Shown here piece by piece: positions 54,789-59,898 of a DNA stretch of 64,000 nt. A model generated the notes under the pieces. The model did no database searches. It had not been told where the DNA came from and saw only the letters and a list, made by a program, of their open reading frames with translations. The stretch comes from Terriglobia bacterium. GTDB lineage: Bacteria > Acidobacteriota > Terriglobia > Terriglobales > Acidobacteriaceae. The translations under genes and the position numbers were made by a program. Position 1 is the stretch's first letter. Each line of letters begins with the position of its first letter. The stretch spans positions 62,001-126,000 of the forward strand of contig JAIQEU010000003.1 in NCBI GenBank assembly GCA_020073665.1. The letters run 5' to 3'.

Positions 54789-54864
<76 letters not shown>

Positions 54865-54908
54865 TCCTCATCCTCCAATGGAATGAAGCACTTGGAGGGT
54901 CCGCACCA

Positions 54909-54931
54909 ACTGATCTTAATCAGTAGGTTGT
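54909..54931 (+). repeat. Third partial copy of the tRNA-Lys anticodon arm
   Basis: Matches the tRNA from ACTGA through the variable loop with a 2-nt deletion in the anticodon loop; ACTGAT-CTTA-ATCAGT is itself a perfect hairpin. It lies 45 nt inside the left end. Could be a scar of an earlier insertion or an accessory recombinase site. Confidence 0.6.
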
Positions 54932-54992
54932 GGCGCGCGCCTGATTCGCCATTCACTGCAACCTCCACTCGTTTATCCACTTGCGAAAAAAT

Positions 54993-55032
54993 CCTAGACC
55001 TACTGACTACTTTTGAGCCTAGACCTACTGAC
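54993..55032 (+). repeat. Left-end direct repeats
   Basis: CCTAGACCTACTGAC occurs twice, at 54993-55007 and 55018-55032 (25-bp period). The core CTACTGAC recurs at the right end (57123-57243). Together they resemble arm-type sites of tyrosine recombinases. They overlap the 3' end of the XRE gene. Confidence 0.65.
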
Positions 55033-55425
55033 CCCATCCGCTCTCGTCCGACTCGTCTCTGCCACCGCCTTGACTTGCACAAGGAAAAGCTCTCGCTCAT
55101 CGCGTGTCAACAGCGGAAACAGGATGTAGCAAGGGGCGACCCTTGGGTCGATCCCGGCAGCTTGCCATGCCGCATCTCCGAATCGAAAAATCATTTTGTC
55201 TTTCATCACCCGCCTGCGCAGCTCCTTCTGCTTCAGGCCAAGTGACGTGCAAAGCCTTTCCAGTGTTGAATCTGACGGCAGACACTGCCCCATAATCAAC
55301 TTCCTGACGTGCTCGTAGGTGACCCCGACACGGCGGGCAAGCTCCGGCGCAGAAAGTCCCATTTCGATCATTCGCTGCTCAAGCCGCGCATTGAAGAACC
55401 CTAGCCGTTCTTGGGTGATCGCCAT
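55000..55425 (-). CDS. XRE-family (CI-like) regulator of the island
   Basis: 141 aa. Helix-turn-helix at about 14-70: RMIEMGLSAPELARRVGVTYEHVRKLIMGQCLPSDSTLERLCTSLGL. The second half (FRFGDAAWQAAGIDPR... LLTRDERELFLVQVKAV) is a helical region without the Ser-Lys autoprotease of LexA/CI, so it is not self-cleaving. AAAGG precedes the ATG by 6 nt. It is divergent from the second XRE gene across a palindromic operator. The last codons and the stop are formed by the left-end direct repeats. Confidence 0.85.
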   Translation of the reverse strand: MAITQERLGFFNARLEQRMIEMGLSAPELARRVGVTYEHVRKLIMGQCLPSDSTLERLCTSLGLKQKELRRRVMKDKMIFRFGDAAWQAAGIDPRVAPCYILFPLLTRDERELFLVQVKAVAETSRTRADGVSRSRLKSSQ

Positions 55426-55435
55426 AATAGAACCT

Positions 55436-55487
55436 TTGACTGCTATCTAAACGCTGTCTACTTTAAGGCTGTAGACCTAAAGTAGTC
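55436..55487. promoter_or_regulatory. Symmetric divergent promoter/operator between the two XRE genes
   Basis: Perfect 8-bp inverted repeat CTACTTTA (55458-55465) / TAAAGTAG (55478-55485), flanked symmetrically by TTGACT (55436-55441) and AGTCAA (55482-55487). TTGACT-N17-TACTTT serves the plus strand; the minus strand reads TTGACT-N18-TAAAGT. Either regulator bound here would block both promoters, as in phage-like switches. Confidence 0.7.
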
Positions 55488-55505
55488 AAGACGCAATATT
55501 AGGGC

Positions 55506-55766
55506 GTGCAAAACGACCCGAAGAAGTTGGTTGGTATGCGGATTCGAGAGCTTCGCTTAGCGAAGGGGATTTCTCAAGAGGCTCTGGCTGATGAGGCGGG
55601 TCTCCATCGCACCTACATGGGAAGCGTTGAGCGTGGAGAGAGAAACATCAGCCTAGAGAACATCGTACGGATCGCGACGGCACTAGGGGTATCGGCCAGT
55701 GATTTGCTCGTGAATCTCAAGGCAGGCCGTCGGACATCAGCGGGACTCCAAGAACGCAAGTCTTGA
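55506..55766 (+). CDS. Small XRE-family regulator (C-protein-like)
   Basis: 86 aa, nearly all one helix-turn-helix: MRIRELRLAKGISQEALADEAGLHRTYMGSVERGERNISLENIVRIATALGVSASDLLV. This sequence type is shared by restriction-modification controller (C) proteins and phage repressors. The start is GTG 55506, right after a palindromic operator. It reads toward the HEPN pair and is separated from it by 87 nt, so it probably controls their timing. Confidence 0.88.
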   Translation: MQNDPKKLVGMRIRELRLAKGISQEALADEAGLHRTYMGSVERGERNISLENIVRIATALGVSASDLLVNLKAGRRTSAGLQERKS

Positions 55767-55853
55767 ACTGGCTTCCACATAGGCGTAGCCTCTCATGCAG
55801 CTACATAGCCATCAGAAATCTGAGGCCACTTCAATGAAGGGAGAGACAAATCT

Positions 55854-56357
55854 TTGGACGAAAAAGGATTCAAAGAGCTAGTCAAGAAGCTCGAAGAAGT
55901 CAACGCGGTGATCACTAAGCTCGACCCCGCGATCCGATCAGAAGCGTTCTCCCTACTAAAGCCGTACTTGGGAACTCGTGGTTCTTCACACGGAGGTTCT
56001 TCTGAAGAAACGACACCAGACGGTGGCGACACGGACGACGCCGAGGCATTCTTTACTAAGCACCCTGAAGGAAAGCCCGCAGACAACGCTGTGCTGGCCG
56101 CAGGCTATCTTTATAGCCAGTACGGGTCTCAGGCATTTTCCCTCGCAGAAGTTCGTGAGGTTGCGGACGCGGCGGGAATCACGATCCCCCAACACCTCAA
56201 CATGACATTCAAGCAGTCTCGTCGGAAAGGAAAAGGTCTGTTTCAGCACGTCGGTAAGAATCAGTTCAAGCCCACTGTTCATGGAGAGGCATACTTTAAG
56301 GGCACTCTGAGTGCCAAGAAGGGAACCAAATCTCGCAAGACTAGTGAGGAATCGTGA
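55854..56357 (+). CDS. Winged-helix-like island protein, partner of the HEPN protein
   Basis: 167 aa from TTG 55854 with AAGGGAGAG upstream. An N-terminal helix (about 1-40), a Gly/Ser/Thr/Asp linker (about 41-62), then a domain (about 63-152) with DNAVLAAGYLYSQYGSQAFSLAEVREVADAAGITIPQHLNMTF, matching in pattern the winged-helix domain of the next protein (DKCLAVIYYEQRYNGKDSLTVEEIRTAIRNARIP). The tail is Lys/Ser-rich. Its TGA overlaps the GTG start of the next gene by 4 nt. Antitoxin, sensor or DNA-binding partner are all possible. Confidence 0.7.
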   Translation: MDEKGFKELVKKLEEVNAVITKLDPAIRSEAFSLLKPYLGTRGSSHGGSSEETTPDGGDTDDAEAFFTKHPEGKPADNAVLAAGYLYSQYGSQAFSLAEVREVADAAGITIPQHLNMTFKQSRRKGKGLFQHVGKNQFKPTVHGEAYFKGTLSAKKGTKSRKTSEES

Positions 56358-57094
56358 CACTGGTGGAGTTCATCGCTCCGCTACGAGACGCCCCCAATCG
56401 GGACAAGTGTCTAGCCGTCATTTATTACGAGCAACGGTATAACGGCAAGGATTCACTCACTGTGGAGGAGATTCGCACTGCCATACGGAACGCTAGAATC
56501 CCTAGAGCAGCGAAGATCAACGTCGCTGACGTGCTGGTAAAGAGCGGTCATTACGTGGATAGCTCCGGCGTGAAGGGACAGCGCCGACTCTGGAAGTTGA
56601 CTGAGTCTGGGCAGCAGAGAGTGCGCACTTTATTGGGGCTTCCAGAAGCGGAACCGGAACTTGAGCACGATGCTGCAACTTTGGAGGGGCTTGCTTCAAA
56701 AATATCGGACGTGGATGTTCGTGGTTATGTCGAAGAGGCGATCAAATGCCTGAAGGTGAGCGCGCTCCGCGCCGCGATAGTGTTCCTTTGGACAGGCGCG
56801 ATCCGAACACTGCAAGAAGTTGCTCTAAAGAAGCCAAGTGGTACGCTCAACGCGGCGATCTCTAAGCATGACCCCAAAGCTCGAACTGTCTCGAAGATTG
56901 AAGACTTCGCATACATAAAGGACGCGACAACGTTGCTCGCGCTTCAAGAACTGGGAATCCTCGACAAAGGGGAAAAGCAGACGTTAGAAGAAGGTCTTAA
57001 CCTCCGCAACCGATGCGGCCATCCGACAAGCTACAAGCCGGGAGTGAAGAAGGCATCGAGTTTCATCGAAGACATCCTTGGAATCGCCTTCTAG
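56354..57094 (+). CDS. Winged-helix plus HEPN-domain protein (candidate RNase effector)
   Basis: 246 aa from GTG 56354, overlapping the preceding stop (GTGA). N-terminal winged-helix-like domain about 13-96. A C-terminal all-helical domain about 105-246 carries R218-N-R-C-G-H223, an Rx4H motif with Asn after Arg, the catalytic signature of HEPN ribonucleases. HEPN enzymes act in toxin-antitoxin, abortive-infection and anticodon-nuclease systems. Whether it is active, and its RNA target, are inferred. The pairing with a smaller winged-helix protein and two repressors fits a controlled toxin. Confidence 0.72.
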   Translation: MTLVEFIAPLRDAPNRDKCLAVIYYEQRYNGKDSLTVEEIRTAIRNARIPRAAKINVADVLVKSGHYVDSSGVKGQRRLWKLTESGQQRVRTLLGLPEAEPELEHDAATLEGLASKISDVDVRGYVEEAIKCLKVSALRAAIVFLWTGAIRTLQEVALKKPSGTLNAAISKHDPKARTVSKIEDFAYIKDATTLLALQELGILDKGEKQTLEEGLNLRNRCGHPTSYKPGVKKASSFIEDILGIAF

Positions 57095-57122
57095 TCTGTG
57101 CTGATGTCGCCGCCCCTACACA

Positions 57123-57243
57123 TACTGACTCGTTTCCACCTACTGACTCTTAGTTTTTGATTTCACAACCAACTGACTCTCGCAGTCGATTCGAATGTGT
57201 GTTTGAAATGAACCACTTCATGTGTGTGCCAACCTACTGACTC
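57123..57243 (+). repeat. Right-end repeat array of ACTGACTC units
   Basis: TACTGACTC at 57123, 57140 and 57235 and AACTGACTC at 57171, all in the same orientation as the tRNA, whose anticodon region reads AACTGACTC. No gene occupies 57095-57364; this array and a terminal AT-rich stretch are all I see. Confidence 0.65.
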
Positions 57244-57364
57244 TGGTTGTGCGTTTTTAGGCAGATTTGCGGGAGAATACTGCGCAACGATCTGAGAGCG
57301 TTGGATTTAACACGAAGAGAGTGGTTGAAAACACAACCACAAGATGTGTTTGAGAAGTGCACAT

Positions 57365-57410
57365 ACTCTTAATCAGTAGGTTGTAGGTTCGATTCCTACC
57401 GCGCTCACCA
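57365..57410 (+). repeat. Right attachment site (46-bp duplicate of tRNA-Lys 3' end)
   Basis: Identical to 54819-54864, including the anticodon CTT, T-arm and CCA. Similarity stops exactly at the CCA. The following 57411-57627 spacer shows no supported gene, although TGTGCCCA repeats near 57481-57501 recall sequences seen next to integrase genes. Confidence 0.92.
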
Positions 57411-57627: not shown

Positions 57628-57894
57628 GGCGGGTGGCCCAGACAATGAAGGGGGTGCCCCATCTCATTCGCGCAGTTGGCGAATGAGTGGGCGACTGCCG
57701 ACGACTCTTGGACTCTCTGGGCAGTCGCAATGCAGTCTTCGCCGCACCAGACCAGAGCTTTGACCCATGTTATCTTCGACCCATGTTGCGATCTGATTGC
57801 GCCCGCGCCCACTCATTCGCACAAATCGCGATTGAAGTGGGGTGCCCCGTTCTCTTCAGTTCTGCTTCGGTGGGGAATGTCTGGGCCACCCGCC
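57628..57894. repeat. BIME/MITE-like element with 17-bp perfect terminal inverted repeats
   Basis: Ends GGCGGGTGGCCCAGACA (57628-57644) and its exact reverse complement (57878-57894). Inside each end is a REP palindrome (CATTCGC...GCGAATG; 57651-57693 and 57806-57848) in opposite orientation. The centre contains GACCCATGTT twice (57762 and 57778). No coding sequence. A REP with the same outer sequence lies at 59553-59622 next to a RAYT remnant, the likely mobilising enzyme family. Confidence 0.8.
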
Positions 57895-57933: not shown

Positions 57934-58230
57934 TCATTGGCATATGCCCCTTCCGGCAGGAACGAGATACATACCTGTCTTTCGATAGATGAAGTCCGGA
58001 GTGCCATCGTAGATGAAATGAAGCCAGAACAACGTTGGAGAAGCCTGATTTTGCGTTGGCTCCGGATTAAACAGGTCTACGTGGCTCCCAGTCTGACCAG
58101 TCGTTTGGTCTATCGTGACATGAGTCGAGCAGAACCAGTTAGAATCCCGGAGACTGGTTTTCCCTCGCTCCATGGGATTGTACTTATCGACTGTCGTCGG
58201 ATGAAGGCCAGTGTCAGACCCGTTGTTTGC
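57934..58230 (-). pseudogene. Orphan RHS-like C-terminal tip
   Basis: An open frame (about 99 codons, stop at 57934) with no start or core domain upstream. NGSDTGLHPTTVDKYNP, HVTIDQTTGQTGSHVDLFNPEP and FIYDGTPDFIYRKTG resemble tips of acidobacterial RHS-type proteins. It lies downstream of, and on the same strand as, a truncated RHS gene and the small membrane gene, the usual position of displaced tip cassettes. The overlapping plus-strand frame 57937-58329 is less plausible. Confidence 0.45.
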
Positions 58231-58257
58231 GGCTTTGATTTCTGTCTAAACGGCACT

Positions 58258-58671
58258 TCACTTTCTCTCTATAGCAGTGGTGCATACCAAGAACAGGGTC
58301 ACTATCAACAAACTCGGCCACAGACCTGAGGTAGCAGCGAGCAGAAATTGATAGGGCGGAAATACGCAAGCAAGAAAAAGCCATCGTACGTCAGTCCACC
58401 CATGAATCTGCGCGAACCCTCCGTTTGCAAACGTCGTCGCTATGCTAAGTAAGATGGGTCCCAAAAAATACAACCCGATCAGTATCCAGATGCTCTCACG
58501 ACCTTGCGGAGAGACCCATCGGCGCAGCGCCCAGCAGAGCGAGAAACCTACCAAAGCCACAAAGTTGGCGATGAGCACATTCGTATTTGAACGTTCGACA
58601 GCAAAGACCAGAATGATTGGAAACCAGAATGATGCCGCTCCACCTATAGCCCAGAAGACATGTCTGATCAT
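58258..58671 (-). CDS. Small four-helix membrane protein, possible RHS immunity protein
   Basis: 137 aa from ATG 58671, supported by GGGAG 6 nt upstream. Four membrane helices (about 8-25, 31-50, 61-81 and 100-132). It starts 12 nt after the stop of the RHS fragment on the same strand, which is where cognate immunity genes sit. No family is recognised; a membrane immunity protein would fit a pore-forming or cell-wall-acting toxin, but that is inference from position. Confidence 0.55.
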   Translation of the reverse strand: MIRHVFWAIGGAASFWFPIILVFAVERSNTNVLIANFVALVGFSLCWALRRWVSPQGRESIWILIGLYFLGPILLSIATTFANGGFAQIHGWTDVRWLFLACVFPPYQFLLAATSGLWPSLLIVTLFLVCTTAIERK

Positions 58672-58683
58672 AGTCACTCCCAG

Positions 58684-59552
58684 TTAGTAAAAAAATGCTC
58701 CGACAAGGCAAACGGCGTGGGAATCCGTAAACGAAATGAACGATGGCAGCGGAAGGAACGGTTTGTTGGGTACTCCTGGTCCTCCTGGAGTCATGCTGTA
58801 GGACCCAGTACTAGCGTCCCAATATGTCTGGAGACAACCTCGCGCTGAATTGGCATAGCGCGTCGTGCCTGCGTTCCTGCATACGAAATTCAACGGGCCA
58901 CCGCTTCCGTATACGGAGCAACTAGATGGATCTTTGTACGGCCAGTGTTTTCCTTGCGACTGCTGTGCTCCGTTGGGCGTATTGTTGTTTGCGGCGTTGT
59001 TCGCGGCTAGCAATATGCGGCCATAAGTGTTATATACGATCGTGGTATGCGAGCAATGCTGGAACGGATTTGACCCAGTTCCCCAACACCAGGCGAGCAC
59101 TGTTCCTGAGGGCATGCCCGGATGGTAACGGGACATAGAAAAGGGACTGTCAAATATGTGAAGGCCGTCGGCGTCGAAGGCGGCGCGATCGCATTGTCCA
59201 GTGCAGGCCGCCGCAAAACCTCGGGTGAGCAATGGGTCGAGAAGATCACATGAGGACAATCCACCACCGATAAGACATTCCCTTTCACTCACCATGCCGT
59301 CGATGGCTACGAGGTCATTACCCCTCAGGTCTAACGGGCACTCCTGCCTGCTCTTGTCGCAGTGAATCAGCCCGAGCAGATCGACCGCTATGAGTGGCAT
59401 ATTGGCCACATAGGCGTACCGATTCCAGGTCTGTGGATTCGCCGCATCCGCCGCCCCCAGCCCAGCCGGGTCGGGCTGAATCCAACGGCCTGACACGGGA
59501 TGATATTCCCTGTAGAGAAAGTCGTACAGTCCCGAAACCGTGTCTTGATTCT
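58684..59552 (-). pseudogene. Truncated RHS protein: end of core plus C-terminal tip
   Basis: Begins in a REP element, with no RHS YD-repeats upstream. GLYDFLYREYHPVSGRWIQPDPAGLGAADAANPQTWNRYAYVANMPLIAVDLLGL is the RHS-repeat-associated core end (DLLGL where DPLGL is usual), followed by a Cys-rich variable tip of about 220 residues (FAAACTGQCD, WCWGTGSNPFQHCSHTTIVYN). The frame runs on through the REP to an ATG at 59592, which is not an authentic start. The tip is unfamiliar; it could still be a toxin domain, now silent unless recombined. Confidence 0.7.
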
Positions 59553-59622
59553 GGCGGGTGGCCCAGACAATCGTGGAGGGTGCCCCATTCATTCGCGCAC
59601 TTTGCGAATGAGTGGGCGACTC
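59553..59622. repeat. REP element at the RHS/RAYT junction
   Basis: The 17 nt at 59553-59569 are identical to the terminal repeat of the 57628 element; a palindrome ATTCGC-GCACTTT-GCGAAT follows. It cuts the RHS gene on one side and supplies the stop codon of the RAYT remnant on the other. Confidence 0.8.
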
Positions 59623-59794
59623 TCACCACTCCCGTCTCCAAACCTCTCCACCGCACGACGTTTCAACTCCAGCGGCCACTCGTGAAGATTCACCCGCACC
59701 AGGCCGCGCTCTCCGCAGGAGTACGCACGAAAGCTGCTCCGCTTCCACTGATCGGGTTGGTCCACCAGTCCGCGTTTTAGGGGGTTGCGCCATC
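59589..59794 (-). pseudogene. RAYT (REP-associated Y1 transposase) C-terminal remnant
   Basis: The frame reads NPLKRGLVDQPDQWKRSSFRAYSCGERGLVRVNLHEWPLELKRRAVERF up to RKVRE and a stop inside the REP. NP-x-KRGLV-x-QP-x-x-W-x-x-SSF is the C-terminal signature of IS200-like RAYT transposases. A TGA at 59795-59797 breaks the frame upstream and the catalytic HUH/Tyr part is absent. Inverted REPs flank it on both sides. Confidence 0.8.
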
Positions 59795-59850
59795 AGAGTA
59801 ACCACCACACTTCGTGCTTGACTGTGACCGCCATCTCAGCCAGATTGTGA

Positions 59851-59898
59851 CAGCACCCACACATTCGCAAAAGGCGCGAATGTGTGGGGCACCCGGCG
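59851..59898. repeat. Inverted REP element upstream of the ADOP gene
   Basis: GCACCCACACATTCGC ... GCGAATGTGTGGGGCACC, opposite in orientation to the 59553-59622 REP and lacking the outer 17-nt sequence. It forms the far side of the RAYT remnant. Confidence 0.7.

Follow-up and report, generated by a model that had tools for sequence, protein, structure and literature searches.

A candidate orphan RHS tip and immunity cassette between two REP/BIME elements in the genome of a Terriglobia bacterium

We identified a compact set of RHS-derived genes in a 64,000-nucleotide stretch of DNA (the window) that is part of contig C48 of the 5.4-Mb genome of a Terriglobia bacterium. On the minus strand the order is RHS core end, Cys-containing linker, variable tip (tip A), a gene for a 137-aa membrane protein, and the frame of a further tip (tip B). 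The set is bracketed by two REP/BIME elements (59553-59897 and 57628-57894). We consider it likely that the set represents an orphan RHS tip/immunity cassette that was probably imported, that is now silent or provides immunity alone, and that carries a putatively membrane-active tip A. The toxicity of the tip, its membrane target, the immunity function, the silence and the import are all things that we infer. The kind of locus is already known, and the tip and the candidate immunity protein are outside the families described in the libraries used.

The RHS fragment occupies the reading frame 59592-58684(-), called as an ORF of 302 aa. The RHS core end (59368-59556, minus strand) is recognized by TIGR03696 at residues 13-75 of 302 (E 2.1e-13) and has 76% nucleotide identity over 199 bp to a long RHS ORF of the same genome (1,468 aa, G000:C2). 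Residues 12-133, which comprise the core and the Cys-containing linker (59194-59364, minus strand), have 59% amino acid identity to that ORF, and the linker is common to other acidobacterial RHS tips. The first DPxGL motif of the core is present; the second reads DLLGL, compared with DPLGL in the long resident ORF. The gene had been described in the initial annotation as an RHS core end with a Cys-rich tip, and the core match, with the Cys-containing linker and the tip in the same frame, agrees with this. The proposed interruption of the gene by a REP at its 5′ side is also borne out. The TIGR03696 match begins at the edge of the REP copy at 59553-59569, and the called start codon, along with the first ~11 codons of the ORF, falls in the REP. 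Thus, the RHS gene is 5′-truncated. A REP copy elsewhere in the genome (L115) codes for a near-identical peptide, MNGVPSAIVWATR. The fragment has neither the RHS body nor a translation start outside the REP, and no long RHS gene adjoins it in the part of the window examined.

The REP/BIME at the cut end (59553-59897) has GGCGGGTGGCCCAGACA at 59553(+), a degenerate inverted copy with 3 mismatches at 59881-59897(-), and inverted arms at 59578-59616 and 59856-59894 (87%). The element at the far end of the cassette (57628-57894) is a REP pair (BIME), with inverted copies at 57628(+) and 57878(-) and no mismatch. Genome-wide, the REP end GGCGGGTGGCCCAGACA has 12 copies at up to one mismatch, versus none for the reversed control. 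A candidate transposase ORF (L113, G000:C38, 9748-10377) was found ~1 kb from one REP copy; by a motif compared by eye, it resembles a REP-associated tyrosine transposase. We rejected the idea of a REP-borne mobile cassette, as no RHS core motif was found in the four stretches examined that have other REP copies. The GC3 of the three cassette frames is 0.52-0.55, compared with 0.73 for two other genes in the window and 0.66 for the long resident RHS ORF. Imported DNA would show such low values, and thus the cassette is probably imported.

A second element lies close by. The 3′ 46 nt of a tRNA-Lys(CTT) gene (54789-54864) are exactly repeated at 57365-57410, and a 28-nt part of this repeat has just these two occurrences genome-wide at up to one mismatch. 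The 2.5 kb between the repeats has a GC content of 0.52 and looks like an att-flanked mini-island (54819-57410). It has four larger ORFs, none of them an integrase gene: two code for HTH proteins, one of which is C-protein-like (E 1.8e-26), and the other two lack a Pfam match. One mini-island protein (246 aa, 56354-57094) carries the sequence RNRCGH, which resembles a HEPN RNase motif, and has a weak PADLOC match to PD-T7-3 (E 0.0025). It is possible that the mini-island is a small defence island.

Tip A (58684-59193, minus strand) is the variable part of the RHS fragment and carries the motif N-x-x-R-x-C-L-Q ... H-x-x-C. In a search of 399 genomes of the class, G091 alone was clearly above noise (45% identity, E 1.7e-10), so the notion that relatives of tip A are common was rejected. 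In the same search the tip of G271 had a per-genome E of 0.012, and the third match (G226, 8.8e-4) proved to be a non-RHS ORF. The region VCRNAG..YAN[SC]..R.CLQ and the later H..C have shorter similarity to the RHS tips of G271 and G188. A model built from the window and G091 sequences, run against 4,518 ORFs of the collected loci, returned G271 (E 7e-5), a non-RHS frame (L098, 0.009) and G188 (0.035); the motif in G271 and G188 had first been spotted by eye and was scored afterwards, and the G271 locus had itself been collected through the tip search. With a four-row tip profile and 396 genomes of the phylum, the genome studied here was the sole one clearly above noise; three further matches at E 0.001-0.01 are in frames of 64-135 aa. 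A scan of named contigs with the tip pattern gave 9 matches, two of which were confirmed: JASHOS010000276 (G091) and JAMCWK010000141 (G271). The named contigs with tip A come from Terriglobia and Acidobacteriota MAGs.

The initial annotation proposed to look for tip homologues joined to full RHS proteins. In G188 and G271 the ORF with the tip relative bears an RHS core and has 428 and 345 aa, respectively, neither of them full length, and the G091 ORF is without a core. Each of the three loci has at least one further RHS core bearing its own tip. We identified no Pfam or PDB sequence match for the distal part of tip A, and the RHS core was the sole match above cut-off when the whole fragment was compared with NCBIfam. 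Neither tip A nor the membrane protein was matched by PADLOC. The earlier impression that the tip and the membrane protein are unfamiliar is thus upheld for Pfam, NCBIfam and PADLOC, the RHS core aside. The structure model of tip A (four-row alignment) is poor, with a pLDDT of 40, and so lends no structural support to a toxin fold. By eye, many acidobacterial RHS tips in the collected loci end near a Cys.

The gene for the 137-aa membrane protein (58258-58671, minus strand) follows closely. The last base of the RHS stop codon is at 58684 and an ATG follows at 58671, which confirms the 12-nt gap reported previously. The gene is preceded by its own ribosome-site-like GGGAG. Its product is hydrophobic, and the high-confidence model made from a 12-row alignment (mean pLDDT 90.9, pTM 0.83) has helices at residues 2-25, 32-53, 60-80, 92-115 (broken at 104) and 118-136, with an extra short helical turn at 85-88. 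The protein had been annotated with four helices, which is slightly off, as the model gives five. None of the 12 alignment rows has a convincing Pfam match. Comparison of the model with the PDB gave a best Foldseek E of 1.4, and with VIA a best Z of 4.7 (rmsd 5.2 over 102 residues). No family was singled out and a fold assignment was dropped; the protein may nonetheless have a known fold.

Homologues of the membrane protein were identified at E below 1e-3 in 11 class genomes besides the genome studied here (399 scanned), and some of them reproduce the pairing seen in the window. For G091, the tip search and the membrane protein search separately reach neighbouring genes, and 8 nt separate the tip gene from the first ATG in the homologous frame. 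The G188 contig has three RHS cores; one with a same-motif tip is followed by a membrane homologue after 37 nt. The gap from tip to membrane gene is short in three genomes, given the 12 nt in the window. The suggested support, a homologous tip with a homologous membrane gene next to it in other genomes, thus exists in G091, and in G188 with a same-motif tip. The best homologue (G087, 5e-16) is 1,060 nt downstream of the sole RHS core match of that genome; the gene directly upstream of it is a 235-aa ORF without an RHS core, and by eye there is an RHS-repeat-like stretch on its other side. In total, 3/11 homologues are on the same strand as an RHS core and no more than 1.7 kb downstream of it, with those of G091 and G188 directly behind a same-motif tip, and the three genomes belong to different families. 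By a hand estimate from core counts, with the distance chosen afterwards, chance alone would place ~0.01 of the first 11 homologues at 2 kb or less from an RHS core. The G271 tip is also followed by a hydrophobic protein, and G271 is not among the genomes with a membrane homologue in the class scan.

Most homologues have other surroundings. For eight of the 11, checked by motif pattern and by profile, there is no RHS core motif in the 7.7-17 kb around, and the profile puts no RHS core nearby either. A profile search of 367 genomes of the order found 18 places in 17 genomes, 13 of them not already known. These 13 were checked by motif pattern for about 1.5 kb on each side, and all 12 that could be assessed have no RHS motif within that distance; the thirteenth (G997) starts 11 bases from the contig start, with its upstream side out of view. 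Six weak matches (E 0.003-0.01: G364, G223, G324, G328, G220, G347) looked unrelated on inspection by eye and were left out. The initial annotation had held that finding the membrane gene without RHS tips in relatives would count against it, and taken literally this is what most homologues show. Thus, the family is mostly stand-alone and not dedicated to RHS proteins, yet with three RHS-linked homologues against the ~0.01 of the hand estimate it is enriched behind RHS tips. This position is a recurrent minority context for the gene. A tree was built from 21/25 membrane protein rows, leaving out G997, G839, the second G304 copy and G001, which were partial or doubtful. On it, the RHS-linked rows require three label changes, two of them forced by well-supported branches. 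With 92 of 500 shuffles giving a number as low as this, the label shows no clustering and the RHS-linked rows form no single clade. This fits repeated recruitment beside RHS tips, or repeated tip loss.

Tip B (57934-58245, minus strand) is a 103-codon open frame that starts 12 nt past the stop of the membrane gene, in the same frame, with its first ATG at 58173. Among 4,518 ORFs, its similarity is to the C-terminal part of an RHS tip in L102 (G198, E 1.4e-4) and, weakly, of one in L040 (G063, E 0.05), with a non-RHS protein (L103, E 0.003) scoring between the two. Against the G198 genome alone the E is 0.0018. Both RHS tip relatives share C-S-x-H ... H-V-D-x-x-N-P near the C-terminus. A match in G156 (E 0.009) was rejected as a tip B relative, as it is in a non-RHS protein. 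By eye, the G198 tip is followed by two small hydrophobic ORFs, and one such ORF overlaps and follows the G063 tip. In the window, we identified no immunity-like ORF between tip B and the BIME, and tip B thus looks like an older displaced tip. A displaced second RHS-like tip had been noted behind the membrane gene, and a core-less frame that resembles RHS tip ends is indeed what lies there.

The genome has nine RHS core matches, of which five are on contig C16 within 5 kb. At this locus (L037, G000:C16) the five cores are carried by short core-plus-tip ORFs and by the end of a longer ORF (1,649 aa), and the downstream ORFs differ in length. Small genes also stand behind arrayed short core-plus-tip ORFs in G062, G188 and G045. 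Across the collected loci, an ORF with at least three hydrophobic segments by a simple hydropathy count is behind 19 of 38 RHS tips, versus 33 of 264 non-RHS ORFs; the 38 include the tip in the window, and the loci are a non-random set, some of them collected for these very genes. That about half of the sampled tips precede a hydrophobic protein suggests that the membrane may be a common target of sampled acidobacterial RHS tips. The search for the T6SS sheath protein VipB (PF05943, the one T6SS family searched) succeeded in the E. coli control and gave no match in any of four genomes (85-100% complete), which makes delivery by a known type of T6SS unlikely.

We propose that tip A is the C-terminal, polymorphic domain from an RHS protein whose 5′ body was lost, with the five-helix protein as its putative linked immunity protein. 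Tip B would be an older, displaced tip whose own immunity gene is gone. Lacking a start signal beyond the REP, tip A in its present form is most likely not delivered. The cassette would persist in silence, open to fusion with a long RHS gene, while the membrane gene may still provide immunity through its own GGGAG. As part of an intact RHS protein, tip A would probably attack the inner membrane, and the membrane protein would block it there. Orphan rhs-CT/rhsI pairs are described as usually lacking translation starts and as open to activation by recombination with the main rhs gene (PMC3967940), and the pore-forming RHS tip Tse5 as being blocked by the membrane immunity protein Tsi5 (PMC9637101, PMC10684867). 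On these precedents we propose that the tip here is membrane-active and that its immunity protein is a membrane protein. With an identity of only 76% over 199 bp between the orphan core and the long RHS ORF of the genome, easy activation by recombination is doubtful.

Other explanations must be considered. The locus may be decayed debris, a dead remnant of an RHS locus beside repeats and a tRNA insertion site, in which the tip and the membrane gene are non-functional; we give this a substantial chance, if somewhat short of even. The 5′ end cut at the REP, the lack of a start signal outside it, the DLLGL where the resident RHS ORF has DPLGL, and a tip B with neither core nor immunity gene are all as expected of debris. 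Set against these features, a run of three frames (about 288, 137 and 103 codons) is still open, the tip A residues common to G091, G188 and G271 are intact in the window, and the gap from tip to membrane gene is similarly short in three genomes. A membrane protein of a stand-alone family that is behind the tip by chance is quite improbable. The homologues without an RHS core nearby (8/11, and all 12 assessable of the further 13) and the scatter of RHS-linked members on the tree would suit such a bystander, but chance poorly explains three RHS placements besides the window in different families, two of them directly behind a same-motif tip, when the hand estimate is ~0.01.

We also regard it as unlikely that the RHS tips are surface or membrane-anchoring domains, with the downstream membrane proteins as partners in export or anchoring. 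Such a role could account for the hydrophobic ORFs behind 19/38 sampled tips, for four genomes of four without a T6SS sheath gene, and for a tip without a toxin family match. It accords less well with the core-plus-tip arrays (L037, L038, L092), where differing tip ends and downstream ORF lengths follow the polymorphic toxin cassette pattern as outlined in a comparative survey (PMC3482391). The orphan tip/immunity cassette is thus the reading that we retain. The layout of a polymorphic toxin locus, as originally proposed, stands as far as adjacency and the G091 and G188 pairs are concerned; it is qualified by a membrane gene that comes from a mainly stand-alone family.

Acidobacteriota are common in soils. 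Their RHS proteins are little covered in the literature searched, with the chief mention in a 2012 comparative survey, and the window offers a testable tip/immunity pair. More tentatively, and with doubts outweighing confidence, the locus may represent a new family of RHS tips (N-x-x-R-x-C-L-Q ... H-x-x-C) that is membrane-active and T6SS-independent in Acidobacteriota, along with a new five-helix immunity family recruited several times from stand-alone genes. Those stand-alone genes may be orphan immunity genes against the toxins of neighbours, and if this is true, they would reveal which soil bacteria are in conflict with one another.

The cassette can be compared with several known systems. 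Polymorphic toxin cassettes, as surveyed in PMC3482391, have the same toxin-immunity gene order, occur as arrays of stand-alone cassettes and include acidobacteria among their carriers; they differ in that the tip and the membrane protein of the window have no Pfam, NCBIfam or PADLOC family above cut-off. By description, Ssp6/Sip6 of Serratia marcescens (PMC6889166) is similar in that the gene for a pore-forming effector is directly followed by one for a small membrane immunity protein; it differs in that Ssp6 is a small effector. Closer in form is Tse5/Tsi5 of Pseudomonas aeruginosa (PMC9637101, PMC10684867), which combines an RHS C-terminal domain, with a core that ends at DPxGL motifs, and a membrane protein. 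Tse5 is delivered by a T6SS, whereas no T6SS sheath gene was found in the four genomes here, and Tsi5 is described with two predicted TM regions, compared with five modelled helices in the window protein. The orphan rhs-CT/rhsI of Salmonella Typhimurium LT2 (PMC3967940) is alike in having a truncated core piece, a variable C-terminal domain, a linked small gene and no start of its own. The LT2 orphan is downstream of the main rhs gene, to which it has 95% identity over 522 bp, compared with 76% over 199 bp to the ORF at G000:C2, and the window differs further from the LT2 pair, as described there, in that its linked gene codes for a membrane protein.
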